From the NCBI RefSeq assembly GCF_026341515.1, contig NZ_JAPEOK010000001.1, positions 1-64,000 of the forward strand: a stretch of 64,000 nucleotides of DNA, written 5' to 3'. The position numbers were made by a program, and so were the translations under genes. The notes under the pieces are model-generated. The model searched no databases and was not told where the DNA came from. It worked only from the letters and a program-made list of their open reading frames with translations. The DNA is from Streptomyces sp. NBC_00878 (GTDB taxonomy: Bacteria; Actinomycetota; Actinomycetes; Streptomycetales; Streptomycetaceae). Positions 24,030 to 38,389 of this stretch are shown piece by piece; the stretch's first letter is position 1, and every line of letters begins with the position of its first letter.

Positions 24030-25565
24030 TCACCGGGGACCCGGACTGCCGCCAGGCGCCACGACATCGAAGTCGCTGTCCCATCCCGTGCTGGGGGTCT
24101 CGGCGGGAAGGAGCGCGTCGGCTATCCGCCAGAGTGCGGCTTTCCGGGAACCCTTGAGAAGCACGACGTCGCCGGCGCGCAATTCGTTACGCAGGAGCGC
24201 CGTCGCGGCTTCGACGTCCGGCACCAGTTGGGTACGGGTGTCCTTGCTTGCGCTTCTCGCCGCGGCTTCATGGATCTGCCGGGCGTCCTCGCCGATCACC
24301 ACGATCCGGTCGGCGGACTGCGCGGCGAGCCGTCCCCAGCTGTCATGCCTGGCGTCTCCGGAGAAGCCGGGTTCGTGTACCGTCCCGAGCAGCGCCCACT
24401 TTCGTGCATCGCCGGTCATGGCCATCGCGGCCAGGGTGCGCAGGGCAGCCCGCACCGATCCCGAGCTCACGTTGCGCGCGTCGTCGATCACGGTGACCCC
24501 CTCCGGCGTCCGATGGACCGCCATCCGGTGCGGGGGCGTCGAGCAGTCGTTCTGCAGACCCGCGATGACCTCGTCGTGCGTGGCACCGAACTCCAGCGCG
24601 ACTGCCGCGGCGGCCAGCGCGTTGTCGATCTGGTGCTCACCGTGCGTCGGCAGGGCGACTCGCGCGGAACCACTGATGCCGGGCAGGTCGAGCCGCATGG
24701 TGAACCGCGGTCTCGCTTGGCTGTCGAGCTCGATGCCGGTGGCGCGAACGTGTGCGTCGGCGGTGCGTCCGGTCAGCACGACTCGGGCCGAGGTCCGATG
24801 CGCCATGGCGGCGACGCGCGGGTCGTCGGCGTTGAGAACGGCGACCCCGCCGGCGGATGCGTCCGGCAGTGCCTCGACGAGCTCGCCCTTGGCGGCGGCG
24901 ATGGCGTCCTGGGAGCCGAACCTGCCGAGATGGGCGTCACCGACGTTCAGCACGACGCCGACACGGGGCGGCGCCGTCGCGCAGAGCGTCACCAAGTGAC
25001 CGATGCCCCTGGTGCCCAGTTCGAGGACGAGGTGCTGGGTGTCTTCCTCGATCCGGAGGACCGTCCACGGTTGTCCCAACTCGTTGTTGAACGACCGCGG
25101 TGACGTGACGGTCGGACCGAGCCGAGCCAGCAGGTGCCCGATCAGGTTCTTGGTCGAGGTCTTCCCGACCGACCCGGTCACCCCGACAACAGCGCAGTCG
25201 GGCACTTGACGCAGCACGTGGCTTGCGAGCTTCGCCAGTGCGGCCAGCACCGCCGCGCCGGATCCGTCGTTGTCGCCCGCCAGCGCGAGCACATCGGTGG
25301 ACACGCAGCTGCCCAGGGACGGCACGACGACAGCCGGTGCTGCCACCTCGCGCGCCGTGAGCACCGCGACGGCTCCCCGCGCGACCGCCTGCTCGGCGAA
25401 CTGGAGGCCGTCGGAGCGTTGTCCCGGCAGTGCCACGAAGAGCGATCCCGGCCCCACCTTCCTGCTGTCGAACTCGACGGTGCCGCGAACATGCTGCGAG
25501 CCGTCCGCCCGGTGGAGGCGGCCACCCACCACGCCCGCAACGGCGTTGAGATCGAGCGGGATCAT
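24030..25565 (-). CDS. MurF-like amide ligase with altered substrate motif
   Basis: A 511-aa Mur-ligase-fold enzyme. Domain 1 has DSRKVGPGSLFVALPGQRSD (UDP-MurNAc end in true MurF). The ATP domain has GVTGSVGKTSTKNLIGHLL with the P-loop, NNELGQPWTVL and ELGTRGIGHL, and HGEHQIDNALAAAAVALEFG opens the C-terminal part. In ordinary MurF the C-terminal motif is D-x-YNANPxSM; here it reads VIDDARNVSSGSVRAAL, so the Tyr-Asn-Ala-Asn-Pro block is lost. ATP-dependent amide-bond formation is expected, but the acceptor may not be D-Ala-D-Ala or UDP-MurNAc-tripeptide. The ATG overlaps the upstream stop (TAATG). It may act on a phosphonate or supply a resistant wall precursor. Confidence 0.85.
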   Translation of the reverse strand: MIPLDLNAVAGVVGGRLHRADGSQHVRGTVEFDSRKVGPGSLFVALPGQRSDGLQFAEQAVARGAVAVLTAREVAAPAVVVPSLGSCVSTDVLALAGDNDGSGAAVLAALAKLASHVLRQVPDCAVVGVTGSVGKTSTKNLIGHLLARLGPTVTSPRSFNNELGQPWTVLRIEEDTQHLVLELGTRGIGHLVTLCATAPPRVGVVLNVGDAHLGRFGSQDAIAAAKGELVEALPDASAGGVAVLNADDPRVAAMAHRTSARVVLTGRTADAHVRATGIELDSQARPRFTMRLDLPGISGSARVALPTHGEHQIDNALAAAAVALEFGATHDEVIAGLQNDCSTPPHRMAVHRTPEGVTVIDDARNVSSGSVRAALRTLAAMAMTGDARKWALLGTVHEPGFSGDARHDSWGRLAAQSADRIVVIGEDARQIHEAAARSASKDTRTQLVPDVEAATALLRNELRAGDVVLLKGSRKAALWRIADALLPAETPSTGWDSDFDVVAPGGSPGPR

Positions 25566-26401
25566 TATTCCTCCACGGAGTCGCTGTGCCGTGCCTGCGG
25601 AACGTCGGTCAGGCACAGGGTGGTGTCCTCGGGCCGTGGCGGCGGGCCGGCCTCGTGGTAGGACGGATGGTCGAACAGGTGCTGACCGCTCAGATCGTTC
25701 TGCCGGCTCAGAAAGAGCTGAAGTTTTTTTCGGTCGTCCGACCAACCGAGACCGTCGAAGAACTCCATGCCGGTGAACCTCGTCTTGTACCGGGCGCCTT
25801 CGTAGTAGCACGTGCCCAAATACACGTGGGAAAGGCCGCGGCGCTGTAGCTCGCCGATCACACTGCTCATCAGGTGCGAGCCGACACCCGTCTTCCGGTA
25901 CCGCACGTCGTAGAACGCCAGAGCGTAGTAGGCGATGGGAGGTTCGACGTACAGGGCGCCCAGCGCTGCCGGCGAATTGTCGGAGGTATCCGTCAGCGTC
26001 AGCAGATGTGTCGTCATGGGCGAGTCCAGCCGGGCCATCAGGTCTGCGGTGCGAAACGGACGACCTCGCCGCGCGAGCCACCACGAACTTTCGTTCATGT
26101 AGCGGACACACATGTCCGCCCAGTCATCCGGCCCGGCGAGCTGCGCACGCGGGAGAAATACGCGGCGGAGCGTGTCGCACTGTCTCCTGATGTAGCGTTC
26201 GCGTCTGCTTTCCGTGTACCTGCCGAGGTCGACGCGCACACTGCGGGCCAGGTAGAACCTGGTCAGCTCGCGGTTGCTCGGCAACATGCCGTAGCCGAAC
26301 GCGGTGGCGGCCGTCTCGCCGTCATCCGGAAAGCCCAGTACCTGGTACGGCGCGAGATGGTTCTCGTAATCAGGGGTGGTTTCCGAGAAGGCCAGCCTCA
26401 T
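25565..26401 (-). CDS. Arginyltransferase-like GNAT-fold protein
   Basis: A 278-aa protein starting MRLAFSETTPDYENHLAPYQ; its ATG overlaps the M23 stop (ATGA), which rules out the longer ORF. The second half resembles the C-terminal GNAT domain of arginyl-tRNA-protein transferases: PIAYYALAFYDVRYRKTGVG, then GLSHVYLGTCYYEGARYKTR and FTGMEFFDGLGW. The cysteine-rich N-terminal zinc region of true Ate is not obvious. Known phosphonate peptides such as dehydrophos gain amino acids through tRNA-dependent GNAT enzymes, so aminoacyl transfer to an aminophosphonate is an attractive but unproven role. It could also be a generic acyltransferase. Confidence 0.65.
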   Translation of the reverse strand: MRLAFSETTPDYENHLAPYQVLGFPDDGETAATAFGYGMLPSNRELTRFYLARSVRVDLGRYTESRRERYIRRQCDTLRRVFLPRAQLAGPDDWADMCVRYMNESSWWLARRGRPFRTADLMARLDSPMTTHLLTLTDTSDNSPAALGALYVEPPIAYYALAFYDVRYRKTGVGSHLMSSVIGELQRRGLSHVYLGTCYYEGARYKTRFTGMEFFDGLGWSDDRKKLQLFLSRQNDLSGQHLFDHPSYHEAGPPPRPEDTTLCLTDVPQARHSDSVEE

Positions 26402-26979
26402 GGAACGTATCCATCGACTTCGAGGCCGGTTTCGATGAGATCGAACAGGCGTGCCGGATTGGCATTTACGTGGTCGCCGTCCGGGTGGTACTGAAAATGC
26501 AGGTGTGCTGCCCTTGCCGGAATCGACCTGCCGTCGGCGACAGCGCCGCCGGTGTGGCCGAGGTAACCGATGACCGTTCCCGCGGCGACGGCAACCGACC
26601 GTTCGCTCTTGCCGATGAATTCTGCCGGGAACGCGTCTGCCGGGCACGCGGGGTCGGTACCCAGGTGCAGGTAGTGGTAAAGGGCGCCGCTCGCCCCGGT
26701 CAACCGCACACGATGCCCCCCGCTTCGGCCTTCCACGGCCAGGATGAACTCCGCGGTTCCCCCTTCCACGGCCAGCAACGGGGTGCCGATCGGGGCCTTG
26801 AGATCGATGCCCTTGTGCACGTGGCTTTCGCTCCTCCGGTGGTGCCAGCCGCCTCGGCCCGGCTCACCGGCATCCGCCCCCCGAAGTTCCGGCCGCTCCC
26901 GGAAGTCTGTCCAGCTCATTCCCGCGACAGGGAACACCAAGTCCGGCACGTATGTCACACCCCTTCTTCGGTTCTTCAT
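26398..26979 (-). CDS. M23/LytM-type metalloprotein without signal peptide
   Basis: A 193-aa protein. It has the full LytM zinc motifs: HxxxD in SHVHKGIDLKAPIGTPLLAV and HxH in RAAHLHFQYHPDG. The glycine-rich turn VIGYLGHTGGAV is typical. Normal M23 endopeptidases are exported, but the N-terminus (MKNRRRGVTYVPDLVFPVAG) has no hydrophobic signal helix, so it would stay in the cytoplasm unless the start is wrong. The TGATG junction with the upstream MFS gene supports this start. It could hydrolyse a peptide precursor inside the cell or act on wall fragments. Its place in a biosynthetic operon is unusual. Confidence 0.8.
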   Translation of the reverse strand: MKNRRRGVTYVPDLVFPVAGMSWTDFRERPELRGADAGEPGRGGWHHRRSESHVHKGIDLKAPIGTPLLAVEGGTAEFILAVEGRSGGHRVRLTGASGALYHYLHLGTDPACPADAFPAEFIGKSERSVAVAAGTVIGYLGHTGGAVADGRSIPARAAHLHFQYHPDGDHVNANPARLFDLIETGLEVDGYVP

Positions 26980-28205
26980 CAGTCGACTCGGCTGCGGAGG
27001 CCCATGGCCCGGTGTGCCGGGGCCGCCGCTGCCGTAAGCGCACAACAGGACACAAGGACGGCTGCCGCTACGCCCCAGCCGGCGATGCCAAGGGTGGCGA
27101 CGACGCTGGCCAGAACCGATCCGGCGATGTTGCCGACGGTCCGGCCCAGGGCGAAGACCGACTGGTACCGGCCGTGCATCGCCGGGTCCGCCAGCTCGTA
27201 GCTGTAGGTCCACGCCGCCGCCGCGGTCCACATCTCGCCCAGCGTGAACAGCACGATGCCGGTCACCAGCATCGCGATCGCGACACCGGTCGCGGTCGTA
27301 CTGGCGAAGGCGATGAGGGTGAATGCGCCGGCAAAGGCAGCTCCGCCGAACAGCGTCACCTTCGATGCGCCGGCCAGATCGGCAGCGCTTCGGGACAAGC
27401 GCACCTGGAGCAGGACCACCACGGCGGTGTTCAGGAACAAGAGAAACCCGGTGAGGCCCACCGGCGCGTGCGTGTGCGCGACGATCCACAGCGGGACCGC
27501 CACGGTGAGTATCCTGGCGCGCGCGGTGAGAAGGCCGCACAGAACGGCCATCACCACATAGCGCACATCGGCGATCGCCGTTCGGGGCGACTTCCGTTCG
27601 GGAGCCGTTTCCGGACAGGGGCCTTTGACAGTGCACGGGATGGCCGCGGCGATGGCGAGCGCCGTACACAGGAAGATGGCCGTGTAGGCCGCGCGGGTGT
27701 CGGCCTGCAGCAACGGCACGACGGCCAAGGTACCGAACGCGTACCCGACATTCGAAAGAGAGCGGCCGTAAGCCTGGTACCGGACCCGGTCTTCTGATCC
27801 CATGACGCGCCCGACCAGCGCACGCTGCCCGACCGACATGCCGAGCAGCGCGGAGTTCGAAACGCTCTCGAAAAGGATGAACGTGAAAAGAGAGCCGATC
27901 CAGACGAAACACGTCGTTGCCGTGGCCGCCAGGACAGTCGAAACGACAATTACCTTGCGCGGGCCGAAATGGTCCACTGCTGGGCCGATCACGAACAACG
28001 CGGCGAAGCTGATCGCCCCGACCGCGGCCATGCCGATACCGACATCGGCTTCCGGAAGATGCACGGAACGAACGAGGAAAATGGCTGCTGTGGCCAGGAT
28101 CGCTCCGGTGCCGATGGAGGTGAAAAGCTGCCCCAGAAGCAGGTAGTTGGACTTTCCGAACGAGGTCAACGGCGCAGCTTTCCCGTGCAGCCATGTTCCA
28201 CGCAT
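26979..28205 (-). CDS. MFS transporter, probable exporter
   Basis: A 408-aa inner-membrane protein with about 12 hydrophobic segments. The first helix starts near FGKSNYLLLGQLFTSIGTGA. A loop-2-type basic motif (VDHFGPRKVIVVSTVL) matches the major facilitator pattern. The internal loop carries TVKGPCPETAPERKSPRTAI. It is probably the exporter of the product of the surrounding operon. It starts 40 bp after the nucleotidyltransferase stop, the widest gap in the operon; that gap holds a 14-bp palindrome CGCTTGATCAAGCG (28,224-28,237) and a GGGGGG ribosome-site-like run. A second promoter here is possible. Confidence 0.85.
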   Translation of the reverse strand: MRGTWLHGKAAPLTSFGKSNYLLLGQLFTSIGTGAILATAAIFLVRSVHLPEADVGIGMAAVGAISFAALFVIGPAVDHFGPRKVIVVSTVLAATATTCFVWIGSLFTFILFESVSNSALLGMSVGQRALVGRVMGSEDRVRYQAYGRSLSNVGYAFGTLAVVPLLQADTRAAYTAIFLCTALAIAAAIPCTVKGPCPETAPERKSPRTAIADVRYVVMAVLCGLLTARARILTVAVPLWIVAHTHAPVGLTGFLLFLNTAVVVLLQVRLSRSAADLAGASKVTLFGGAAFAGAFTLIAFASTTATGVAIAMLVTGIVLFTLGEMWTAAAAWTYSYELADPAMHGRYQSVFALGRTVGNIAGSVLASVVATLGIAGWGVAAAVLVSCCALTAAAAPAHRAMGLRSRVD

Positions 28206-28245
28206 GAGATGAAGTGCACCCCCCGCTTGATCAAGCGCTGGCCGG

Positions 28246-28974
28246 TCAAGGGAAGTTCACCTCGTCGCGTTCGACGAGGGCGGCCGCCACGGGGACGTCT
28301 TGGGCGGAGTCGACTTCGGCCCATTCATCGGAGGTCGCGTGCAGCACGTCCAGCCCATGGGTGATCGCCAGCTTCCGCATTGCGAACTCGTACCAGTCAC
28401 CGACCCGGCCCGCCGCGAGCATCTCGTCGATGGCCGACGAGAACCGGGCCGCATTGGCTCCGCTCCACCGGCTTACGCCGAAGAACTCGCCCTGGCGCGG
28501 CGACGGTTCGAGGTCCTTTCCGAAGTCGACGGCCCTGCCGTCCTGGATCCGGACCTTCATGTCGATGTCCGCGTAGGCCTTGCTCGTGTCGACCGCCAGG
28601 ACATCTCGCGGGGAGTCGACCATCCGCTGCAGAAGGTCGCGACCGACCAGCACGTCCCCGTCGATCACGCAGAACGGCTCATCCCAGAACGGCCTGGTCA
28701 GCGCGAGGGACACGATGCTGTTGGTAGTGGCGAAGTCCGGGTTCTCCACTAACCGCAACGGCGGCGCCTCGGGGCAGGCATGCAGTGATGACCGGAGCAT
28801 CTCGGACCGGTAGCCGCAGACGACCACCACCTCCGAGACCTTCACCTTGGCCAGCCGCCGCATGGTGTGCCAGATCAACGGTGTACCTGCGACCGGCACC
28901 AGAGCCTTCGGCGCCTCCTCGGTGTATGGCCGCAGCCGCGAACCGGTCCCGGCCGCCGGAATTATCACTCTCAC
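28246..28974 (-). CDS. Nucleotidyltransferase, probable phosphonate cytidylyltransferase
   Basis: A 242-aa sugar-1-phosphate-nucleotidyltransferase-fold protein. The signature is VRVIIPAAGTGSRLRPYTEE, then PKALVPVAGTPLIWHTM; metal-site residues are in CVIDGDVLVGRDLL and EWAEVDSAQDV. Small enzymes of this type (PntC and the N-terminal part of Fom1) join CTP to 2-aminoethyl- or 2-hydroxyethylphosphonate. Next to PEP mutase and a CDP-alcohol phosphotransferase, this is the most likely reaction. The start is GTG 28974, whose GTGA overlaps the aminotransferase stop. A choline-phosphate cytidylyltransferase-like role (LicC type) is the main alternative. Confidence 0.82.
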   Translation of the reverse strand: MRVIIPAAGTGSRLRPYTEEAPKALVPVAGTPLIWHTMRRLAKVKVSEVVVVCGYRSEMLRSSLHACPEAPPLRLVENPDFATTNSIVSLALTRPFWDEPFCVIDGDVLVGRDLLQRMVDSPRDVLAVDTSKAYADIDMKVRIQDGRAVDFGKDLEPSPRQGEFFGVSRWSGANAARFSSAIDEMLAAGRVGDWYEFAMRKLAITHGLDVLHATSDEWAEVDSAQDVPVAAALVERDEVNFP

Positions 28975-30155
28975 TCTGCCAGCCTCTCCAGTGCGCGGTC
29001 GAGTTGCCCCGGGCCACCCGCGAACGACATGCGGACAAACCGTTCGCCCGCCCGGCCGAACGCCGAGCCGGGCACTACCGCCACACCACACTCGTGCAGC
29101 AGGTACTCGGCCACCGCGGAGCCGATCGAATCCTCCACGTGAATACCGCGTAGCCGAGCGAACTCACCTACGTCGACGAAGGCGTAGAACCCACCGTCGG
29201 GAAACGCCGTCCCACCCAGGCCGGGGAGCTGGGCGACATCGGCCAGGAACCGCTCGCCGTGGCGCTGTATCTCCGCGGCGTGAACGGACAGTTCACCGTC
29301 CGCTTCCGGGTCGCGCAACGCTGCCGCGGCCGCCAGCTGGACCGCATGACTCACCGCGAGCATGAAGAACGTGTGTGCCTTGGCCGCCTCGGCGATGACC
29401 GCCGGGCTGCCGACCATCCATCCGATCCGCCATCCCGACACGCCGAATCGCTTGGAGAGGCTGTTGACCGCGATGCCGTGGCCGTGGTGGTCCAGTGCGG
29501 CGACCGAGCGATGCTCGATTCCGTAGGCGAACCGGTCGAGCACCTCGTCATGGATCACGTACAACCCGTGTTCGGACGCGAAGGTGCAGAGATCCGCCAG
29601 CTCGCCCCCGCCGGTCACGCGTCCGGTCGGGTTGCCGGGCGAGTTCACCAAGACGACCCGTGAGCGTTCCGTGAGGTGTTTTCGCAGGTCCGGCACGTGC
29701 AAGGCGAAACCGTCGGCCGCGCTGGTCGGGACGCGGACGACACGCCGGCCAAGCAGCTCGATCATCGGTGGGTAGATCATGTAGGCCGGATCGGCGAGGA
29801 GAACCTCGTCACCGGGCTCGGTCACCGTCAGGACCGCGATCCAGAGCGCGCCCGCCGCCCCGTTGGTGACCAGCAGCTGCGTGTCCGGATCGAGGTCGAT
29901 CCCCTGTTCCGACCGGTATACCTGGGCAATCGCCGCACGAAGCTCGATCGCGCCCCGGGAGTGCGCGTAGCGGTCCTCGGGCCGAGCACTTTCGCCGGGA
30001 CTGCCCGACAGCACGGCCAATCGCTCGCCGAAGGACCGCGGCGGGCCGAACGAGGGAAGGCCGACGGTCAGGTCGATCGTTCCCGGATGACGCTGAGCGT
30101 ACTCCGAGATCCGCTTCGACGAATGTGGCGCAAGTGCACTCAACGCACCGTTCAC
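28971..30155 (-). CDS. Class I/II PLP aminotransferase
   Basis: A 394-aa fold-type I aminotransferase. It has VLVNSPGNPTGRVTGG (Asn-Pro-Gly region binding the cofactor), VIHDEVLDRFAYG (Asp) and NSLSKRFGVSGWRIGWMVGS with the Schiff-base lysine, plus a late FVRMSFAGG arginine. The GTG start at 30155 overlaps the stop of the CDP-alcohol transferase gene. It is distinct from the class V enzyme two genes upstream. It may aminate phosphonopyruvate to phosphonoalanine or act on a later keto acid. In some phosphonate clusters a cytidylyltransferase is fused to an aminotransferase; here the two adjoin directly. Confidence 0.85.
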   Translation of the reverse strand: MNGALSALAPHSSKRISEYAQRHPGTIDLTVGLPSFGPPRSFGERLAVLSGSPGESARPEDRYAHSRGAIELRAAIAQVYRSEQGIDLDPDTQLLVTNGAAGALWIAVLTVTEPGDEVLLADPAYMIYPPMIELLGRRVVRVPTSAADGFALHVPDLRKHLTERSRVVLVNSPGNPTGRVTGGGELADLCTFASEHGLYVIHDEVLDRFAYGIEHRSVAALDHHGHGIAVNSLSKRFGVSGWRIGWMVGSPAVIAEAAKAHTFFMLAVSHAVQLAAAAALRDPEADGELSVHAAEIQRHGERFLADVAQLPGLGGTAFPDGGFYAFVDVGEFARLRGIHVEDSIGSAVAEYLLHECGVAVVPGSAFGRAGERFVRMSFAGGPGQLDRALERLAE

Positions 30156-30817
30156 AACTGGTCTCCTCTCGCCATCGACGTGACCCGGTAACCGCGGACC
30201 AGCAGATTCAGGCCGATCGCGCCCGTCTCGACCCAGAGAACCGCCAACGCGGGAGCCGGGCCCCAACCCGCCCACAGGACAAGGGCGATCGTCAGCACCA
30301 GCAGCCGGGCGTCGCTGCCGGCGCTGATCCAGATGAAGGGCTTCTCCGCATGCTTCTTCGGATATCGCCTGCCGAACGCGGAGTGGAACTTTTCGGAGCT
30401 CACCGCGAGCAGCAGGGCACCGGCCAGGGCCAGGAGGCCGGCCCGGAGTGCCCCCGTGCCGACCGACGAGGACAGCCTGACGGCAAAGGCGATGATCAAG
30501 ACCGTTTCGACGATCCGGTCGGTCATCGTGTCGTAGAAGTCGCCGATCGCCGACGGCTCTCCCCGGATCCGGGCGACCTCTCCGTCGCAGCAGGACAGCA
30601 CGCCGAAGACCTGCACCAGCAACCCACCGGCCAGCAGCTGGCCGGTCAGAATGCAGGCAGCGGCCGCAATGCCCGCGAGGAGGTCGAACGTGGTGACCGT
30701 GTTCGGCCCGAACCGGCGCGCGAGCACCGGTGAGACGAGGCCGGACAGGCGCCGTTGCACGACTTGGCAGTAGACGCCGTCCACGGCGGCCTTCGCATCT
30801 TCGACTTCACTGCCCAC
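30152..30817 (-). CDS. CDP-alcohol phosphotransferase, membrane protein
   Basis: A 221-aa integral membrane enzyme with the perfect family motif DGx2ARx8Gx3Dx3D: CDGEVARIRGEPSAIGDFYD then TMTD. Five or six hydrophobic helices follow (FDLLAGIAAAACILTGQLLA, IVETVLIIAFAVRL, LLALAGALLLAV, LLVLTIALVLWAGWG). The family moves the phosphoalcohol of a CDP/CMP-activated group to an alcohol acceptor such as diacylglycerol or inositol phosphate. With the neighbouring cytidylyltransferase it would place a phosphonate on a lipid or glycan at the membrane. The GTG start at 30817 overlaps the AEP-transaminase-like gene by 11 bp. Confidence 0.88.
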   Translation of the reverse strand: MGSEVEDAKAAVDGVYCQVVQRRLSGLVSPVLARRFGPNTVTTFDLLAGIAAAACILTGQLLAGGLLVQVFGVLSCCDGEVARIRGEPSAIGDFYDTMTDRIVETVLIIAFAVRLSSSVGTGALRAGLLALAGALLLAVSSEKFHSAFGRRYPKKHAEKPFIWISAGSDARLLVLTIALVLWAGWGPAPALAVLWVETGAIGLNLLVRGYRVTSMARGDQL

Positions 30818-31910
30818 GCCGCAGTCCCCCCTCGCCGAGCACGGCGCCGAGCGCGGCCAGCACATGCGTGACGTCACTGTCGCCGACGTATCCCATGTGG
30901 CCGATGCGCAGCGCACTGTCCTTCCATGTCCCTCGCCCGGACGCAATGTGCACCCGGTGTTCCGTCGCCATCCGCTCCCGGAGGTCGCTCGCCCGCACCT
31001 CGGCCGGCACGAAGAAGGACGTCACGGACGGAGAGGCGTGCGACTCATCGGCCGCGAGCGGCAGCCCCAGGCCGACGAGCCCGCTGCGGCACTGCCCGGC
31101 AAGCTGTTGGTGCCGGGCGAGAACCCGGTCCCAGCCTTCGTCCGAGATCATCCGCAACGACGCCTGGAGCGCGTGGAAGACCGGGATGGCGGGTGTATAG
31201 CTGGTCGTGTTCTCTTCGACGGCCCGCGCCATCGCGCTGAAGTCGAAGTAGTACCGCCGAGCCGGGTTCGCCGCAGCCGCGTCGAGGGCTCGCGTGCTCA
31301 CGCCGATCAGCGCCAGTCCAGGCGGCGCCATCAGGGCCTTCTGGCTCACGCCGACCGCGACATCGATCCCCCAGTCCCGCATGAGCACCGGTGTCGCCCC
31401 GAGGCTGCTGACGACGTCGACGATCAGCAGTGCGTCACTGCACTCACGTACCACGCGACCCAACTCGGGCATCGGGTTCAGCACACCGGTGGACGTCTCG
31501 TTGTGCGTGATCAGGACCGCAGCCACGGCACGGAACCGCCGGAGCACGATCTCCAGATCCCGGGGATCGACCGCCTGGCCCCATGGCACCTCGACCAGCT
31601 CGACAGCCAGGCCGGCCATCCGGGCGATCTCGGCCATGCGGCGTCCGAAGTACCCGGTCGACACCACGACGACTCGCTGCCCCGGACTCACCGTGTTGAC
31701 GACGGCCGCCTCGAGTCCACCGGTACCCGAGCAGGTGAAGGGCAGAATGGTCGCCGGACCCCCGAAAACGGGGGCCAGAGCACCGAGAACTTCCGCGACG
31801 AGGTCCCGGAACCCCGCCGATCTGTGGCTGATCATGTCGCTGGACAGGGCCGTGCGGACCTTCGGCGGCAAGGGTGTCGGTCCGGAAATCCGGAGGTTCA
31901 CGGTGTGCAC
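30807..31910 (-). CDS. 2-Aminoethylphosphonate transaminase-like (class V aminotransferase)
   Basis: A 367-aa PLP enzyme of the serine/alanine-glyoxylate and AEP-transaminase group. It has the N-terminal LRISGPTPLPPKVRTALS, SHRSAGFRDLVAEVLGALAP, THNETSTGVLNPM, IVDVVSSLGATPVLMRDWGI and the lysine in VGVSQKALMAPPGLALIGVS. In this context it should aminate phosphonoacetaldehyde to 2-aminoethylphosphonate. The start is GTG 31910 after GGGAGACATCAG. It lies 22 bp from the alcohol dehydrogenase gene, which would use the same aldehyde, so both fates of phosphonoacetaldehyde are encoded side by side. Confidence 0.82.
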   Translation of the reverse strand: MHTVNLRISGPTPLPPKVRTALSSDMISHRSAGFRDLVAEVLGALAPVFGGPATILPFTCSGTGGLEAAVVNTVSPGQRVVVVSTGYFGRRMAEIARMAGLAVELVEVPWGQAVDPRDLEIVLRRFRAVAAVLITHNETSTGVLNPMPELGRVVRECSDALLIVDVVSSLGATPVLMRDWGIDVAVGVSQKALMAPPGLALIGVSTRALDAAAANPARRYYFDFSAMARAVEENTTSYTPAIPVFHALQASLRMISDEGWDRVLARHQQLAGQCRSGLVGLGLPLAADESHASPSVTSFFVPAEVRASDLRERMATEHRVHIASGRGTWKDSALRIGHMGYVGDSDVTHVLAALGAVLGEGGLRRGQ

Positions 31911-31931
31911 CTGATGTCTCCCCTCGATCGC

Positions 31932-33071
31932 TCACAACCTGGACCGCAGCAACCCGAGAACCGGGTCCTTGCGGAGCGCGATCGGATGGTTCTGCGCGCG
32001 GTTGTTGCTCAGCGCTTCATCGAACATCGGCTCCAGGTCCGAGGCGCGAACCCCGACCTCGCCGAGCCGGGTCGGGCAGCCGGCCAGGGACAGCAGCCGC
32101 GCGAGGGCGGCTCCGGAATCGGCAGCTGTCCGGGCACCGAGAAGCGTCAGCATCTGGTCGGTCTCCTCCTTGGCCATGCGGGAATCTGACGGCTCGCGGT
32201 CGAGTTCACCGAGCGTGAAAGGCAGCAGCCAGACCAGATGCAATGCGCACGCGAGTCCGTGCGCCACCCCGAACTGCGCGGTCGTGGGGTATGCGAAGGC
32301 GTGTGCCGCTGTCGTGCGGGTCAGATCGATCGCGTGACCGGCCATGACCGCGGCGTTGCTGAGCAGCTCCCGCTGTCGCGCAGTGGTGTCACGAAAGCCC
32401 GTTCGCAGGATGGGAATCAAGTGCGACAGTGCCCCTCGCGCGAGCGCCCGCGACGACGAGCCGGCGCGTGGCGACCACCACGACTCGATGGCGTGCGCGG
32501 TGGCATCGAGCGCGCAGTGCGCGGTCAGCGTCGGCGGGCACGTCCGCGTGAGCACGGGGTCGATCAGCGCCACATCCGCCCGCACGGCCGGATGGTCCAG
32601 TGATTGCTTTCGCCTGCCGAGGTAGATCGTGGCGAACGTCGTGACCTCGCTGCCCGGACCGGCCGTGGTGGGGATCACCACGAGCCTCGGTGGTCTCGTT
32701 GCCCGCACGGGAGCCACGCCGCGGAGGACTCGCTCGGCTTCCGCGCTGACCGGCGGCAGCAACCGGACAGCCTTCGCCGTGTCCAAAGTGGAACCGCCAC
32801 CGATGCCGAGCACGACATCCGGCCGGTACCGCGCCACGGCACCCGCGCCTCGGACGACGTCCGCGGCCTGGGGATTCGGCACGATGTCGTGGAAGTAGTC
32901 GTGGTCGTGCCCCACCAGCCACCCTGCCGCGCCGGTCCGGAGCACCGTGTTCCGCGTCGCGACCACGAGAACCCGCTGGGCTCTCATCCTTCGGAGCACC
33001 TCCGGCAACTTCGCGGCGATTCCGGCGCCCGCCATCACCTCAACCCGGCGCTGCTCGTCCAGTTCACTCAC
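31932..33071 (-). CDS. Iron-type alcohol dehydrogenase, probable phosphonoacetaldehyde reductase
   Basis: A 379-aa group III alcohol dehydrogenase. It has the nucleotide-binding GIGGGSTLDTAKAV, VVIPTTAGPGSEVTTFATIY, and metal ligands in ALDATAHAIESWW and AHGLACALHLVW. Homologues such as PhpC and FomC reduce phosphonoacetaldehyde to 2-hydroxyethylphosphonate. The position directly after phosphonopyruvate decarboxylase makes that the likely substrate. The GTG start at 33071 shares bases with the upstream stop (GTGA). Much of the longer upstream ORF is out-of-frame shadow. Confidence 0.85.
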   Translation of the reverse strand: MSELDEQRRVEVMAGAGIAAKLPEVLRRMRAQRVLVVATRNTVLRTGAAGWLVGHDHDYFHDIVPNPQAADVVRGAGAVARYRPDVVLGIGGGSTLDTAKAVRLLPPVSAEAERVLRGVAPVRATRPPRLVVIPTTAGPGSEVTTFATIYLGRRKQSLDHPAVRADVALIDPVLTRTCPPTLTAHCALDATAHAIESWWSPRAGSSSRALARGALSHLIPILRTGFRDTTARQRELLSNAAVMAGHAIDLTRTTAAHAFAYPTTAQFGVAHGLACALHLVWLLPFTLGELDREPSDSRMAKEETDQMLTLLGARTAADSGAALARLLSLAGCPTRLGEVGVRASDLEPMFDEALSNNRAQNHPIALRKDPVLGLLRSRL

Positions 33072-34210
33072 TCCAGCCGCCCCCCGCGCGCGGCGGCCAG
33101 CTCTTGCTCGAACCTGGCCCGGATCCCGGCGAGCGGCAGGTGCGCACTTGCCCGCGGCGGCACATCGGTCTCCGCCGCCCGGATGCGCACGGCGACCAGG
33201 CACGGACCCGGTTCCGTCAGGGCCTTGTCCAGCGCGGTTGGCAGCTCGGAGCCGTCGGCGCACGACCAGGCAGCGCGATAGCCGGTGGCGCGCGCCAGCT
33301 CCGGCCAGTCGACCGCGGCGGAGGTGGTCGGCTGGCTTCCGGTGGAACCGTAGGTCCCGTTGTCCAGCACCACATGCAGCAAGTTCGCCGGAGCGAGATG
33401 GCCCACGGTCGACATGGTGCCCAGATGCATCAGCGCCGCTCCGTCGCCGTCGAGGACGACGACGCGTCGATCGGGCCGGCGCAGTGCTGTCCCGAGCCCC
33501 AGGGCCAGCGCGTGTCCCATCGAACCTTGCATGTAGAAGTTGCCCGGCCGATCGGCGGCGGCGAACAGCGCGCGCGAGGTGTAGCCGGTCGTGCCGTAGA
33601 TCGCGGCGTCCGCAACCCGCGCCGACACCATCCGGACCGCCTCGGCACGGCTCAGCGTCCTGTCCGGACCGACGGAGATCGGGACCGGCTCGGCCGTTTC
33701 GACCGTCCCCTTCGGCACCAACAGGAAGTACGGCTTGCCGGTCGCCTCGGCCTCCCGCGCGCACGCCAACGCTTCCTCCAGCGAGGCGGGCGACGGCTCG
33801 AGAAGCATGCTCGGCACGCCGTAGAGACCGGCCGTGGACTCGGTCGTGCGTCCCATGACGCTGTGCTGCGGTTCGTCGGTCCCCACCGGCCAGCCGCGGA
33901 GACTCACCACGATGAGCACCGGGATCTCGTAGGCAAGCGCCAGGGAGGTCAGCGGGTTCACCAGGTTTCCGAGACCCGAGTTCTGGATCAGGACGGCTGA
34001 GCGGGTGCCGGCCATCCGTGCGCCGGCGGCGACAGCCAGGGCGGCACCCTCGTTGGCCGCCGGGACGTAACGGCCTTCGTGGCCGGACAGGACCGAGACC
34101 AGGCCCGCCAGACGGGAACAGGGAACACCGGAGAAGAACCGGTAGTCCTGTGCCAGCAGCGCTGCGGCGAACTTCTCCGCGCCGATCACCGTTTCTCCAG
34201 GTGCAGCCAT
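33068..34210 (-). CDS. ppd: Phosphonopyruvate decarboxylase
   Basis: A 380-aa thiamin-diphosphate enzyme that drives the unfavourable PEP mutase reaction by converting phosphonopyruvate to phosphonoacetaldehyde. N-terminal pyrimidine domain: FFSGVPCSRLAGL and PAANEGAALAVAAGA with the catalytic glutamate. C-terminal pyrophosphate domain: VVVLDGDGAALMHLGTMSTV, then VVLDNGTYGSTGSQPT, a hallmark of this family. The ATG at 34210 overlaps the PEP mutase end by 25 bp. With PEP mutase it makes the phosphonate assignment firm. Confidence 0.94.
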   Translation of the reverse strand: MAAPGETVIGAEKFAAALLAQDYRFFSGVPCSRLAGLVSVLSGHEGRYVPAANEGAALAVAAGARMAGTRSAVLIQNSGLGNLVNPLTSLALAYEIPVLIVVSLRGWPVGTDEPQHSVMGRTTESTAGLYGVPSMLLEPSPASLEEALACAREAEATGKPYFLLVPKGTVETAEPVPISVGPDRTLSRAEAVRMVSARVADAAIYGTTGYTSRALFAAADRPGNFYMQGSMGHALALGLGTALRRPDRRVVVLDGDGAALMHLGTMSTVGHLAPANLLHVVLDNGTYGSTGSQPTTSAAVDWPELARATGYRAAWSCADGSELPTALDKALTEPGPCLVAVRIRAAETDVPPRASAHLPLAGIRARFEQELAAARGGRLE

Positions 34211-35043
34211 TTGTCGAGGTGGGTCAGCTCGAACACCTCGGAGACCGGGGAGATCAGGTCCTCGACCGCGGTGGACGTGCCGGACGACTCGATGCTGGTC
34301 AGCACCCGGTACATCGACCTGACCGCGGCCCGCAGGGCGTGGTTGGCGTAGATGACCAAGGACACTCCGGAGCTCTCCGCGTCCGTGAAGTGCCAGTCGT
34401 GGTAGGTGGTGGGCACCACGACCACCGGTGCTCTCGCCTGCCAGGCATCGAGGAACTCGATCACCTCGCGGGGGGAGTCCTTCTTCGAGTGCACCAAGAT
34501 CACGTCGGCACCGGCATCGACATAGGCATGGGCGCGGTGCAGCGCCTCCTGCACGTCGTGTCCGGCGATCAGTGCCTCCGTGCGTGCGACGAGCACGAAG
34601 TCCGGGTCGCGTTGCGCGTTCTTGCCCGCTTCGATCTTCCGGGCGAACTCGTCGACGGCGAGGAGTTCCTGCCGTCGATCGACGAAGCTGTTGGTCTTGG
34701 GGAAGACCTTGTCCTCGATGCAGACCCCCGCGACGCCGGCCGCTTCGTAGCGCTGGACCAGATACGCGACGTTGGGGGCGCCACCGAAACCGGTGTCACA
34801 GTCGGCGAGAATCGGTACCGAGCAGACCGCCGCCATCCGCCCGGCCGCCTCCAGGAAGTCTGCCATCGACAGCAGGCTCATGTCGGGCAGGCCGTTGGCC
34901 GCCGAGATCGTGAAGCTGGAGGCCCACACCCCGTCGAAGCCGCTGATCTCCACCAGGCTCGCGCTCAGCGGATCATGAGCTCCCGCCAACCTGGCGATCT
35001 GCCGGCTCGCGATCAGTTCGCGAAGCTTCGTAGTACTGTTCAT
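34186..35043 (-). CDS. pepM: Phosphoenolpyruvate phosphomutase
   Basis: A 285-aa member of the isocitrate-lyase/PEP mutase superfamily that forms the C-P bond (PEP to phosphonopyruvate). The diagnostic mutase motif EDKx5NS is present as CIEDKVFPKTNSFVDRRQ. The metal-binding segment is ILADCDTGFGGAPNV, and HDPLSASLVEISGFDGVWAS is the usual N-terminus. The ATG at 35043 overlaps the dehydrogenase stop. There is no fused cytidylyltransferase domain, unlike Fom1; a separate one is encoded downstream. Confidence 0.96.
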   Translation of the reverse strand: MNSTTKLRELIASRQIARLAGAHDPLSASLVEISGFDGVWASSFTISAANGLPDMSLLSMADFLEAAGRMAAVCSVPILADCDTGFGGAPNVAYLVQRYEAAGVAGVCIEDKVFPKTNSFVDRRQELLAVDEFARKIEAGKNAQRDPDFVLVARTEALIAGHDVQEALHRAHAYVDAGADVILVHSKKDSPREVIEFLDAWQARAPVVVVPTTYHDWHFTDAESSGVSLVIYANHALRAAVRSMYRVLTSIESSGTSTAVEDLISPVSEVFELTHLDKWLHLEKR

Positions 35044-36140
35044 CAATCCCCCACTCCGGTGTCCTCGACAGGCGTGCCAAGCGGTGCCACACCACACTCC
35101 TCCGCTACGCGCACCAGATCCGTCACGACAGCGGGCCTCAGCGGAATGCCAGCCGCCAGCCGGTGCCGCTCGATTTCGTGCTCGCGCTCGCCGGCGACCA
35201 GGATGCGGTCGTGCCCGCGCGCCTTGGGCGAGGCCCGCAGTTCGTCGAACATCCTGTTGGCCTCGGCCTGGAAGTCCGCGAGCGTGGTCAGTGCGGCCAC
35301 TTGACCGCAGAGGAAGAAGTGACCGAGGCCGGCTCCTTCGGCTCCGTACACGTGGCGTCCCCAGCGAGCACCCGCAAGTGGTCCGCAGAACAGCTCCACC
35401 ACGGTCGCGAGGCCGTATCCCTTGTGCCCACCGTGCGACTCCCCCGAGCCCCCCAGCGGAAGAAGGGCGTAACCCTCGCGGGCTTTCAGGCCCTCCACGA
35501 CCCTCGGGATGTCCGTGGTCGACTCGCCGCTCGGGTCGACCGCCCACCCGGATCGCATGTCCCGCCCTTCTCGATGCAGGCGTTCCAGCTTCCCTCGCGG
35601 GACGACGCTGGTCGCGGCGTCGAACACGAAGGGCTGGTCGGCGTCGGTCGGGAAGGCGACCGCGAGCGGATTCGTCCCGAACATGGGCGTGGCACCGTTG
35701 GTCGGCGCCACCTGCGGTGACGCGTTGGTACCGACGATGGCGAACAGGCCCTGCCGGGCGGCGCGCAGGGCGTAGTAGCCGGCGATGCCGAAGTGGTTCG
35801 ACCGGCGTACGGTCGCCATGCCGATGCCCGTCTCGACGCTTTTCGCGATGGCCATGTCGACCGCCTCGCACGAGGCCGGCTGGCCCAGGCCATTGCCGGC
35901 GTCGAGGGCCACGGTCGCCGCCGTCTCGGCCAGGACGGTGGTCCTGGCATCGGGCAGGATCTTGCCGTCCCGCACTCCGTCGACGTACCTGCACAGTCTG
36001 GCCACGCCGTGACTGTCGACACCGCGCAGGTCCGCTGCCGTCAAAACGTCGGCGACCAGCGCCGCGTCCTCCTTGAGCACGCCGACGGCCAGCAGGCACC
36101 GGCACGTGAAGTCGTGCAGTGATCGGTGGTCAACTCGCAT
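35043..36140 (-). CDS. LDH2/MDH2-type NAD(P)-dependent 2-oxoacid reductase
   Basis: A 365-aa malate/lactate dehydrogenase of the non-Rossmann type. Motifs: AADLRGVDSHGVARLCRYVD, TVRRSNHFGIAGYYALRAA with the catalytic histidine, and GHKGYGLATVVELFCG. Substrates in the family are small 2-oxoacids. Here it could reduce phosphonopyruvate to phosphonolactate, or hydroxypyruvate to glycerate for the glycerate kinase next door. The ATG at 36140 overlaps the kinase stop by 11 bp. Its position between glycerate kinase and PEP mutase links it to early steps, but the true substrate is not readable from sequence. Confidence 0.85.
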   Translation of the reverse strand: MRVDHRSLHDFTCRCLLAVGVLKEDAALVADVLTAADLRGVDSHGVARLCRYVDGVRDGKILPDARTTVLAETAATVALDAGNGLGQPASCEAVDMAIAKSVETGIGMATVRRSNHFGIAGYYALRAARQGLFAIVGTNASPQVAPTNGATPMFGTNPLAVAFPTDADQPFVFDAATSVVPRGKLERLHREGRDMRSGWAVDPSGESTTDIPRVVEGLKAREGYALLPLGGSGESHGGHKGYGLATVVELFCGPLAGARWGRHVYGAEGAGLGHFFLCGQVAALTTLADFQAEANRMFDELRASPKARGHDRILVAGEREHEIERHRLAAGIPLRPAVVTDLVRVAEECGVAPLGTPVEDTGVGD

Positions 36141-37251
36141 GAGGCATCGCTCCATGGGCGAGGGCCGACAGCGCCGCGCGCTCGAACGCGTGCCGGCGCT
36201 CGGCGGTCTCCGCGTTGGCCGGTGTCGGCGGTTCGAGCCCCAGCTCCACGCAGTGGACACCCGAGGGCAGGTCGCCGGCGGGCACCGCCAGCTCGCCGAC
36301 GATGATCACGACAGGCTTGCCCTGCTGCCTGGCCATGGTGGCGACCAGTCCCGGGACCTTGCCGTCCCACGACCCGCGGTCGAACCGTCCCTCGGCCGTG
36401 AGCACCAAGTCCGCGCGCTCGATCTGACCGGCGAGCCCGGCGAGCGAGGCGAAGAACTCGCCTCCGTGGCTGACCGGCGCGTCGAACGCGGCGCGCAGAC
36501 CGGCGGCCAGGCCGCCGCCTGCACCGAGGAACGGCTCGGCCAGCAACGTGTCATCCTGTCGGCCGAGCGCGGCCAGCAGCGCGTCCAGCATGTCGTGCAG
36601 GACCACCGCGTCCGGCGGGGTGATCCCCTTCTGGGCACCGAACCGCTCGATGTTGTGCCGCAGCGGAGTGGACACGTCGCTCAGCACTTCGACGCACACG
36701 TCGCGAAGCAGTTCCACGGCGGGACCGGTGTCGACGCGTCGCACATGCACGAGGTCACGCGGCGTAGGCGTGAGCAACCGGCCGGCGGAGTCGAGAAAGC
36801 GAACTCCCAGTGCGGCAAGGGCACCTGCACCGAAGTCGACCGAGGCGGTTCCGCCCGCCGTGACGACCACGCGAGTCGCTCCCTGCCCGACTGCATGCGC
36901 GATCAGCTGTCCGGTCCCCTTGGTGTTCGCCACGAGGGGTTGCCGGGGACGGCCGGCGACCAGCCGCAGTCCGCTCGCTCGAGCTGTCTCGACGAACGCG
37001 GTTCCGTCGTCCGTCAGGAGGTAGTCCGCCGACACCGGCGCGCCGAGGGGATCCTCGGCCGTCGTCCGGACGCGAGTACCGCCCAGCAGTTCGGCAGCGA
37101 TGTCCAGTGCGCCGTCACCGCCGTCCGACAGCGGGATCGTCACCACGCTGTCCACCAATCCGGTCCGCACCAGGCCGCTCGCCAGCCCTTCACCCACCCA
37201 CCGTGCACCCGGCCCACCGCGGAACGCGTTGGGCGCGACCAGAACTCGCAT
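36130..37251 (-). CDS. Glycerate kinase, GlxK/GarK family
   Basis: A 373-aa kinase that phosphorylates glycerate (to 2-phosphoglycerate in this family). It has MRVLVAPNAFRGG, IPLSDGGDGALDIAAE, FVETARASGL, NTKGTGQLIAHAV, VTAGGTASVDFGAGALAALG and LVLTAEGRFDRGSWDGKVPG, all typical. The usual SLSA after APN is altered to RGGPG. It follows the dioxygenase by 4 bp. 2-Phosphoglycerate is one step from PEP, so it may feed PEP mutase. Alternatively it phosphorylates a glycerate-like phosphonate intermediate. Confidence 0.85.
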   Translation of the reverse strand: MRVLVAPNAFRGGPGARWVGEGLASGLVRTGLVDSVVTIPLSDGGDGALDIAAELLGGTRVRTTAEDPLGAPVSADYLLTDDGTAFVETARASGLRLVAGRPRQPLVANTKGTGQLIAHAVGQGATRVVVTAGGTASVDFGAGALAALGVRFLDSAGRLLTPTPRDLVHVRRVDTGPAVELLRDVCVEVLSDVSTPLRHNIERFGAQKGITPPDAVVLHDMLDALLAALGRQDDTLLAEPFLGAGGGLAAGLRAAFDAPVSHGGEFFASLAGLAGQIERADLVLTAEGRFDRGSWDGKVPGLVATMARQQGKPVVIIVGELAVPAGDLPSGVHCVELGLEPPTPANAETAERRHAFERAALSALAHGAMPHAS

Positions 37252-37255
37252 ACGA

Positions 37256-38140
37256 TCACCGCCCGGCGGTGTGGTGGACTGCTGGCGTTCGCCGAATCCA
37301 CGTCCGGTAGAGCAACCGCGCTCGGCCGGGGTCGGGGTGGTCGTCGAACGTGGTCCTGCCGTGCAGAATCCGCAGGTTGTTGAAGACCGCGAGCTCGCCG
37401 GCGGCCATGCGGCCCTCGACCGCGCTGGCCGGGTCCTCGAGCACCGCGTCGAACGCGTCCAGCGCACCGCGTTGTGTGGGCGTCAGCGGGTCGGCGCCGG
37501 GCTGACCGTGCCCGATCTCGATGTACTGCCGCAGATAGGTCACGGCGTGCCTGTCGTCAGCAGTCCTGAACAGCACGGGTTTGCGCACCGTGGCCGACTC
37601 CCCCGACGCCTGGTCACCCCGTCGGTCGAAGTGGAAGTCCTGTTCCAGCACCGCAAGCGCGTCGGGCCTGTCGGCAAGGAGAGCCCGGAGGCGGTCCACC
37701 GGAACGAGCCTCAACATGCCGCCGGCCTTCGCCGGCCGCACGCACAGGAGGGTGAAGTAGTCCGGCAGCGGGAAGGGCCGCTCCGCGCCGTCGGTGTGGA
37801 GGTGACCTCCGTGCCGCGAGTCCGCGTAGCGAGCCGATCTGCCCTCGCCGACCACAGTGCCGCGGTTGCGCACGGATCTGATCCGCGTGCCCGCTTTATC
37901 CTGGTCCATCACGGTGCCCAACGCCTCGGAGGCCCACAGCAGCACCTGCTCGCAGATGTCCTGTTCGGTCACCTCGAGGCCCGTCATGACCAGAAACCCG
38001 GCGCCCGCGTCAACGTGGTCCCGCACGAGCATCCGCACTCTTTCACGCTCGGACTGGGCCGCACTGCCGTCGAACTCTCCCTGCCGGACGGCGGCGAGGA
38101 AGCCTTCCGACCACCTGTGTCGTTGCCGATCAAAATCCAC
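37256..38140 (-). CDS. TauD/TfdA-type Fe(II)/2-oxoglutarate dioxygenase
   Basis: A 294-aa oxygenase with the iron facial triad: HxD in HGGHLHTDGAERPF and the distal His in ILHGRTTFDDH. An arginine for 2-oxoglutarate follows in RARLLYRTWIRR. TauD-like enzymes hydroxylate, desaturate or otherwise oxidise phosphonates in several pathways (PhnY type, among others). It is the first gene of the long minus-strand operon. Its promoter must lie in 38,141-38,730, where an old MurF fragment occupies part of the space. The reaction may be 1-hydroxylation of 2-aminoethylphosphonate, but the order of steps is unknown. Confidence 0.85.
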   Translation of the reverse strand: MDFDRQRHRWSEGFLAAVRQGEFDGSAAQSERERVRMLVRDHVDAGAGFLVMTGLEVTEQDICEQVLLWASEALGTVMDQDKAGTRIRSVRNRGTVVGEGRSARYADSRHGGHLHTDGAERPFPLPDYFTLLCVRPAKAGGMLRLVPVDRLRALLADRPDALAVLEQDFHFDRRGDQASGESATVRKPVLFRTADDRHAVTYLRQYIEIGHGQPGADPLTPTQRGALDAFDAVLEDPASAVEGRMAAGELAVFNNLRILHGRTTFDDHPDPGRARLLYRTWIRRTPAVHHTAGR

Positions 38141-38389
38141 GCGGGTTCACCTTCGCAGGCTATGGAGTACACGACCGTGGAGCCACTCACATTGGGCGCA
38201 CGCCGTGCGTCCTGCGGGCGCATTAGTCACGTTCCGTGGTTTGCGCTGTTTGGTGCCGTGAAGGGTGGCAGCGTATTCCGGATACCAGGGCGTCCACAAA
38301 GACGCGTTGCCGGAGAGTCCGTAGCGCCCTTGCTCCAGAATGAGCAAGTTCCGTGCACGCTGCTGTTCGGCGAAAGCCATTTGTCCGCT

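Follow-up and report, generated by a model that had tools for sequence, protein, structure and literature searches.

We identified an intact phosphonate operon beside a glycopeptide antibiotic (GPA) gene cluster in Streptomyces sp. NBC_00878. The operon lies within bases 1–64000 of contig C1 (10.2 Mb) in a genome of 11.1 Mb; we refer to this whole 64,000-base stretch as the window. Its 14 minus-strand open reading frames (ORFs) run from g36 to g23 (window positions 38140 down to 24030), and the same unit recurs in GPA-carrying genomes of other actinomycete genera. The explanation that we favor, at just short of an even chance, is that the operon makes a phosphonopeptide partner antibiotic whose 1-aminoalkylphosphonate warhead (an alanine or serine mimic) would act at the D-Ala-D-Ala step beside the GPA. 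The operon and its flanks contain the following features, from left to right:

22247–23023, plus strand: type II thioesterase (Pfam Thioesterase, 9e-57; 96% identity in Streptomyces sp. WAC 04229)
ends 23428, plus strand: single-cluster ferredoxin (Pfam Fer4_13, 6.6e-10; 92% identity in WAC 04229)
23522–23965, minus strand: g22, GNAT acetyltransferase, PhnO-like (top NCBIfam NF007530, under cut-off)
24030–25565, minus strand: g23, MurF-like ligase with a changed C-domain motif (TIGR01143, 345.8 bits vs cut-off 288.6)
25565–26401, minus strand: g24, very rare GNAT protein resembling arginyltransferases (weak arginyltransferase profile matches)
26398–26949, minus strand: g25, small M23-type peptidase domain, start uncertain (Pfam Peptidase_M23, 1.1e-9)
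26979–28205, minus strand: g26, MFS transporter (Pfam MFS_1, 3.7e-21)
28246–28968, minus strand: g27, nucleotidyltransferase, cytidylyltransferase-like (top PDB chain 1jyk, 5.9e-13)
28971–30155, minus strand: g28, class I/II pyridoxal phosphate (PLP) aminotransferase (Pfam Aminotran_1_2, 2.2e-58; start GTG 30155)
30152–30817, minus strand: g29, CDP-alcohol phosphatidyltransferase-like enzyme (Pfam PF01066, 3.2e-8)
30807–31910, minus strand: g30, class V PLP enzyme resembling the N-terminal half of a DhpH-type protein (Pfam Aminotran_5, 2.4e-27)
31932–33071, minus strand: g31, iron-containing alcohol dehydrogenase (Pfam Fe-ADH, 2.2e-31; top NCBIfam TIGR03405, under cut-off)
33068–34189, minus strand: g32, phosphonopyruvate decarboxylase, Ppd (TIGR03297, 350.3 bits vs cut-off 312.5)
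34186–35043, minus strand: g33, phosphoenolpyruvate (PEP) phosphonomutase PepM, motif EDKVFPKTNS (Pfam PEP_mutase, 1.6e-60)
35043–36140, minus strand: g34, Ldh_2-family dehydrogenase, DhpC-like (Pfam Ldh_2, 1.6e-112)
36130–37251, minus strand: g35, glycerate-kinase-family kinase, DhpB-like (Pfam Gly_kinase, 7.5e-82; TIGR00045 over cut-off)
37256–38140, minus strand: g36, TauD-type Fe(II)/2-oxoglutarate dioxygenase, DhpA-like (Pfam TauD, 6.3e-26; start 38140 or 38032)
38334–38719, plus strand: decayed van-type murF relic (blastx to MurF of the genome's own van locus)
38739–39821, minus strand: g38, FemAB/FemX, VanK-like (Pfam FemAB, 2.8e-47)
40048–64000, minus strand: pekiskomycin-like GPA genes, running on past the window (families; 82–97% identity to WAC 04229)

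Every one of the 14 operon ORFs could be assigned a Pfam family. As tested, 12 of the 14 read from a start codon to a single terminal stop, as does g35 once its start is placed at ATG 37251; g25 lies in an open frame with its start somewhere from 26820 to 26979. Overlaps of 1–11 bp join 8 of the 13 adjacent gene pairs: g35/g34 (11 bp), g34/g33 (1 bp), g33/g32 (4 bp), g32/g31 (4 bp), g30/g29 (11 bp), g29/g28 (4 bp, taking GTG 30155), g25/g24 (4 bp), and g24/g23 (1 bp). A fifteenth gene, g22, continues the minus strand after the operon. An earlier sequence-only reading had described a run of 14 mostly overlapping genes that forms a complete carbon–phosphorus (C-P) pathway next to a GPA cluster, with GPA-type genes on the right and a thioesterase and a ferredoxin on the left, and these points were borne out. 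The same reading took the operon to be embedded in the cluster; the thioesterase, the ferredoxin, and one GNAT gene do lie beyond the operon, but the operon itself sits at the left edge of the GPA genes. A DDE-type transposase ORF is present left of the cluster (9605–11095).

The GPA genes begin at ~38.7 kb and extend past the window to roughly 92–96 kb. Within the window, we read them from their Pfam families as DpgA-C, Hmo, HmaS, P450s, A-PCP (adenylation–peptidyl carrier protein), glycosyltransferase, halogenase, sulfotransferase, MbtH, and nonribosomal peptide synthetase (NRPS) genes, with g48 (51070–52278) on the plus strand within minus-strand neighbors. Three large ORFs of the cluster (1872, 4107, and 3150 aa) read as NRPSs, and a prephenate dehydrogenase, an ABC (ATP-binding cassette) transporter, a methyltransferase, and two CysN/CysD-type genes were also read. 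In WAC 04229, g20 to g57 and the NRPS ORFs occur in identical order at 82–97% identity, with g37 (a relic fragment) unmatched. Because this gene order is identical, an assembly join between the phosphonate and GPA genes can be ruled out. A pekiskomycin biosynthetic gene cluster (BGC) is listed for WAC 04229 (PMC8698665), and the collinear window cluster is thus pekiskomycin-like and of type I. The label of a vancomycin-like cluster given from sequence changes to pekiskomycin-like. The pekiskomycin clusters of Streptomyces spp. WAC4229 and WAC1420 have one glycosyltransferase, as does the window. In its available parts, the pekiskomycin literature found in a limited search makes no mention of phosphonate genes, and no mention of a GPA–phosphonate pairing was found in a limited literature search.

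We searched GTDB genome contigs for PepM and obtained 97 relatives, of which 80 were kept. Gene content was compared in 19 of the 80 loci, and a scan of all 80 reported a locus if it had GPA genes, g29, or two members of the TauD/kinase/Ldh_2 triad. The triad was reported near PepM in seven of the 80 loci (L071–L074, L076, L077, and L079). The unit, including the MurF, M23, and arginyltransferase-like GNAT genes, is present in WAC 04229, Kutzneria sp. CA-103260, ‘Rhodococcus rhodnii’ NRRL B-16535, and Umezawaea endophytica. These four carriers were found by PepM, not by GPA genes. A GPA cluster is present in all five unit genomes, the window's included, and the DpgA proteins of the other four are 87–92% identical to the window's. 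The unit adjoins GPA genes in three of the five: the window, WAC 04229, and Umezawaea, where it lies between the Dpg genes and a pair formed by MurF and what reads as a D-Ala-D-X-ligase-like protein.

In the remaining two carriers, the sets are apart. The Kutzneria unit (at 3.63–3.64 Mb) lies 4.36 Mb from the GPA set, and adjacency through a reversed chromosome was ruled out, as no phosphonate genes occur at 7.95–8.07 Mb; in NRRL B-16535, the unit and the GPA set are on separate contigs. A second Kutzneria DpgA (65%; G395:C1:3518073-3519122) lies ~117 kb from the phosphonate unit. The species label of NRRL B-16535 (L073, L192; JOAA01000026) is doubtful, given its 12.4 Mb genome and its placement with Umezawaea's family. 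The MurF of its unit shares 93% identity with a MurF of Kibdelosporangium aridum, which has a known chloroeremomycin BGC (PMC8698665).

The junction between FemX (g38) and TauD (g36) contains murF remnants. A van locus elsewhere in this genome (C1:4261941-4267631) has a FemX–MurF pair like that at the junction, and blastx aligns the relic to its MurF with 89% identity across 36 aa and 40% across 67 aa. VanH and VanA of this locus were named by reading and VanX by Pfam; its VanX-family gene is free of stops. All four VanX-family matches in this genome lie far from the GPA cluster, whereas VanHAX and VanY are spoken of in pekiskomycin BGCs (PMC8698665). At the WAC 04229 junction, there is at most a shorter, fainter murF remnant. 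The van-type relic and the separation of the sets in two genomes make the unit look like a block added at the GPA edge. The sequence-only reading had held that separate occurrence in relatives, with transposition or an assembly join at the junction, would undercut the association; the separation and a relic are present, and the join is not. To the right of the GPA cluster, a chimeric ORF (G000:C1:100908-102395) contains MurF sequence that matches g23 at 51% identity over residues 117–292 and the junction relic at 92% across 24 aa.

These features would suit two unrelated products, with the unit having landed at the GPA edge in a recombination-prone region as a neighbor without functional link. 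The decayed murF marks the junction, linkage is missing in Kutzneria and NRRL B-16535, contig C1 begins with the window, most Pseudonocardiaceae GPA genomes are without the unit, and the window's family shows no general PepM–DpgA excess. We nevertheless consider this account unlikely. Both unlinked carriers still hold both sets, which favors co-inherited products over chance among the product options raised by the sequence-only reading.

The frequency of the pairing was assessed in 390 genomes of Umezawaea's family, Pseudonocardiaceae, in which 27 genomes have PepM (at 1e-70) and 27 have a DpgA with at least 87% identity. All three PepMs with at least 81% identity, those of the unit carriers, come from genomes with such a DpgA (27 of 390; hypergeometric p=3e-4), compared with 1 of 24 other PepM genomes (G401) (Fisher p=0.0014). 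This contrast favors a link; these p values ignore the relatedness of the genomes, which weakens the case for a functional pairing. Several further counts pull in the same direction. A DpgA at 1e-100 is found in 4 of the 24 other PepM genomes (G401, G462, G489, and G781), and the window and WAC 04229 are near relatives. Of the 27 Pseudonocardiaceae whose DpgA reaches 87%, 24 are without the unit, and a GPA therefore does not need it. In the window's family (394 genomes including its own), PepM (1e-30) occurs in 104 and DpgA (1e-80) in 61, and the two coincide in 19 genomes against ~16 expected by chance, which limits any link to this clade. Within that family, PepM and DpgA lie within 20 kb of each other only in the window's own genome (next is G134, ~52 kb), and the nearest foreign PepM has 59% identity.

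Actinoplanes subtropicus has a second pairing, with the genes in a different order, which also speaks against unrelated products. Here, a divergent phosphonate set lies between Hpg/Dpg genes (77–89 kb) and P450/halogenase genes (116–124 kb). It includes PepM (54%), TauD, kinase, Ldh_2, Ppd, alcohol dehydrogenase, and class V PLP genes, and the nucleotidyltransferase/aminotransferase/CDP-alcohol trio. It adds a g22-like GNAT (39%; contig C14:95291-95707), an MFS gene, an Acetyltransf_6 GNAT, and ATP-grasp, adenylation, carrier, condensation, and thioesterase domains; from these domains, a peptide would be the expected product. Seven core proteins from nine genomes (without L078, and with one fused protein trimmed to its first 375 residues) gave an unrooted tree in which Actinoplanes subtropicus groups with G220 (99/97) and falls outside the clade of the unit. 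No DpgA at 1e-60 is present in G220, so the GPA–phosphonate pairing may have arisen twice. In the Actinoplanes subtropicus family, PepM at 1e-85 occurs in 8 of 354 genomes (next best 59%), and among the seven others plus G220 three have DpgA at 1e-60 and none has it on the PepM contig. This set is internal to its GPA cluster, unlike the window's edge position.

Within the operon, the first two C-P enzymes are confirmed. PepM exceeds the Pfam PEP_mutase cut-off (205.2 vs 31.5 bits), narrowly misses TIGR02320 (315.4 vs 319.55), and carries the EDKxxxxxNS motif; Ppd clears its NCBIfam cut-off. The sequence-only reading had named both enzymes correctly. Its two other labels were not upheld: the AEP (2-aminoethylphosphonate) transaminase-like enzyme (PhnW/AepZ type) scores 187.3 against the TIGR03301 cut-off of 360.8 bits, and the phosphonoacetaldehyde-reductase-like enzyme (g31) is not confirmed at equivalog level (TIGR03405, 176 vs 423.7 bits). 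An AEP route is not supported and was rejected, since NCBIfam equivalog cut-offs are not reached and the genes match dehydrophos-type clusters.

Seven window genes have matches in such clusters. The products of g36, g35, g34, g33, g32, and g31 each align with genes of loci L077 and L079, and we take them to be the DhpA-B-C-E-F-G set in letter, role, and order. Both loci have the order TauD–kinase–Ldh_2–class I aminotransferase–PepM–Ppd–alcohol dehydrogenase–class V PLP/GNAT, presumably the dhpA-H order. The L077 methyltransferase matches PDB 3ou2 at 2.5e-86, a structure that we assume to be DhpI. In L077, from Pseudonocardia sp. ICBG1293, the DhpH-like gene is split by a transposase-like gene (L077:14037-15233). 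The nearest PDB chain to g36 is FrbJ (1.5e-13), followed by 7n7v and DfmD, and g30 is 46–47% identical to the PLP half of a PLP–GNAT fusion in Amycolatopsis nivea. PepM, Ppd, the iron-containing alcohol dehydrogenase, the TauD oxygenase, the glycerate-kinase-type kinase, Ldh_2, and the class V PLP enzyme are common to the unit and to dehydrophos biosynthesis (dhp, Streptomyces luridus). This gene content and order imply a 1-aminoalkylphosphonate, an alanine mimic.

The unit is not a dehydrophos cluster, because the early enzymes are present but the fused GNAT and the methyltransferase are missing. It differs further in adding g27/g29, the arginyltransferase-like GNAT, M23, and the altered MurF. 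In dehydrophos biosynthesis, DhpH-C turns L-Ala(P) into L-Leu-L-Ala(P) with Leu-tRNA, and DhpK adds Gly (PMC12945691). By analogy, tRNA-dependent amide formation would also be expected for the window unit.

In the pathway that we propose, PepM (g33) would convert PEP to phosphonopyruvate and Ppd (g32) phosphonopyruvate to phosphonoacetaldehyde. The substrates past this point, the peptide nature of the product, and its synergy with the GPA are predictions from gene families and gene neighborhoods. The dehydrogenase g31 would turn phosphonoacetaldehyde into 2-hydroxyethylphosphonate, and g36 would hydroxylate it at C1. Phosphorylation by g35 and then oxidation by g34 would give an acylphosphonate, and the two PLP enzymes, g28 and g30, could carry out transamination and phosphate loss. 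The arginyltransferase-like g24, perhaps with the altered MurF g23, may form the amide. MFS transporter g26 would export the product, PhnO-like g22 would give self-protection, and the g27/g29 pair probably uses CMP to activate the phosphonate before transferring it to an alcohol. The same step would thus be hit from both sides, the phosphonate disturbing D-Ala supply or joining and the GPA capping D-Ala-D-Ala.

Precedents for such an action exist. Synergy with other wall inhibitors is reported for alafosfalin, L-Ala-L-Ala(P), and di-alanyl fosfalin is reported active on glycopeptide-resistant enterococci (PMC7144462). Alafosfalin is synthetic, and its warhead and target step resemble those proposed here. 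The analogue of D-Ala (S)-1-aminoethylphosphonate inhibits alanine racemase and causes cell lysis; in Escherichia coli, PhnO detoxifies it (PMC3463581).

Several observations weigh against a phosphonopeptide partner antibiotic. No DhpI-type methyltransferase is among the 14 operon genes, and g30 (367 aa) is the PLP part alone, without the fused GNAT of DhpH-type proteins that L079 retains. Neither g27 nor g29 has a known place in the dehydrophos route. In a PDB profile search, the sole GNAT found with g24 was 3d8p, and its arginyltransferase similarity is weak. The top family of g22, NF007530 (aminoalkylphosphonate N-acetyltransferase), scores 49.9 bits, far under the 142-bit cut-off. A g22-like acetyltransferase lies beside the Kutzneria set (78%; L072:1830-2273), but the GNAT adjoining the NRRL B-16535 unit is only 35% identical to g22 and none was found in the 100 kb surrounding the Umezawaea unit. 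In several orders, van-like genes are also reported to have MurF and GNAT genes as neighbors (PMC8698665), and by analogy g23 and g24 could be wall-resistance genes.

The added genes are unusual in several respects. A search of 5.8 billion proteins listed 14 homologues of g24. The arginyltransferase model PRK01305.1-4 matches all 15 aligned g24 members at E 0.1 (best 2.1e-9; the window's 1.2e-6), and ATE_C matches 11 of 15 at E 1, mostly weakly. An orphan g24 homologue (63%) lies in a transposase-rich region at G616:C2:1351338-1352135 (L221, L223), in a genome, probably of Kibdelosporangium philippinense, with a DpgA at 88%; within 60 kb around it, no other unit gene was found except a 28% match to MFS. 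In g25, H[KR]GID and HLHF are kept in all five aligned sequences.

The nucleotidyltransferase g27 is nearest, among solved chains, to 1jyk, a CTP:phosphocholine cytidylyltransferase, and also matches 6pd1; we take these to be LicC and PntC. Unlike either, g27 is paired with a CDP-alcohol transferase inside a dehydrophos-type C-P pathway. Convincing matches to g29 (E 1e-41 or better) make up 11 of 17 listed. The CDP-alcohol phosphotransferase motif is DxxDGxxAR...GxxxDxxxD; in the g29 clade, its first Asp is Ser and the rest is kept. In the scan of the PepM loci, g27, g28, and g29 occur together in L071, L072, L074, and L076, all in genomes with DpgA.

This combination raises the alternative of envelope self-protection, in which g27 would CMP-activate the phosphonate, g29 would move it to a lipid or wall polymer, and MurF, M23, and GNAT would adjust the wall. 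Besides the affinities of g27 and g29 and their joint occurrence in these four loci of DpgA genomes, the reported MurF–GNAT–van neighborhoods would fit it. We judge it quite unlikely, as the g29 clade is without the first motif Asp, g29 was not found in the NRRL B-16535 unit, and a van locus is already in the genome. The joint occurrence is itself qualified by a 30% g29-like match in L116, a gammaproteobacterial metagenome-assembled genome outside the DpgA test, and by the scope of the scan, in which g27 or g28 by itself did not suffice for a locus to be reported. The MFS exporter and the PhnO-like GNAT are more in keeping with a diffusible product.

In the MurF-like g23, the sequence DDARNVSSGS replaces the conserved C-domain DDxYNANPxS, and the alignment shows the ATP-binding region to be retained. 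Among 120 of 955 MurF matches surveyed, the motif is replaced in seven (P0032–P0037 and P0041), 111 keep [YF]NAN, and two have [YF]NAS. P0041, from Streptomyces violaceus, is a 307-residue piece of a unit-type MurF (93%), possibly a decayed unit copy. In a MurF tree (14 rows, midpoint-rooted, with the 101-kb MurF fragment left out), the g23-type proteins form one clade (100/100), which groups with MurFs of four Pseudonocardiaceae and is separate from those of Streptomyces and from two of van type. Together with the core-protein tree, this suggests transfer from Pseudonocardiaceae into Streptomyces. The junction shares FemX and a murF relic with vanHAX-MurF-VanK self-resistance; g23, in contrast, belongs to another MurF clade and has another motif, which rule it out as a displaced van-type MurF.

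The altered motif beside a retained ATP-binding region, replaced in seven of the 120 and canonical ([YF]NA[NS]) in 113, together with the separate clade and the adjoining FemX, could also mean an altered wall precursor. In that case, g23 would join a phosphonate-ended dipeptide to UDP-MurNAc-tripeptide, making stems that the GPA cannot bind. We regard this as very improbable: the van locus makes it redundant, a role of the motif in acceptor choice is our assumption, and we know of no precedent for a phosphonate-type precursor. Attachment of the phosphonate to the glycopeptide itself, one of the product options of the sequence-only reading, is the least supported and hardly to be expected. The shared cluster would allow it, and a CMP-phosphonate and transferase pair could esterify a sugar. 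To our knowledge, however, pekiskomycin contains no phosphorus, and in two genomes the unit lies far from the GPA set. A methylated glucose is reported for pekiskomycin, which was described from WAC1420 (PMC8987122).

The phosphonopeptide partner antibiotic remains the explanation that we favor, as it would account for most of the features. A further step, in which the two sets are an evolved two-drug supercluster on one target and the repurposed MurF serves to join the phosphonate or to make stems that escape both drugs, seems rather unlikely to us. WAC 04229, with its listed pekiskomycin BGC, is already isolated and sequenced and would allow a direct test of phosphonate production. The arginyltransferase-like GNAT, the MurF with a rewritten motif, and the cytidylyl/CDP-alcohol pair in a phosphonate pathway are candidate new enzymes. 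Two pathway types, each already known, come together here in a recurrent pairing that brings several unusual extra genes. Should the link be functional, these bacteria would hold a natural pair of a GPA and a D-Ala-mimicking phosphonate, which may be of interest against glycopeptide-resistant bacteria.

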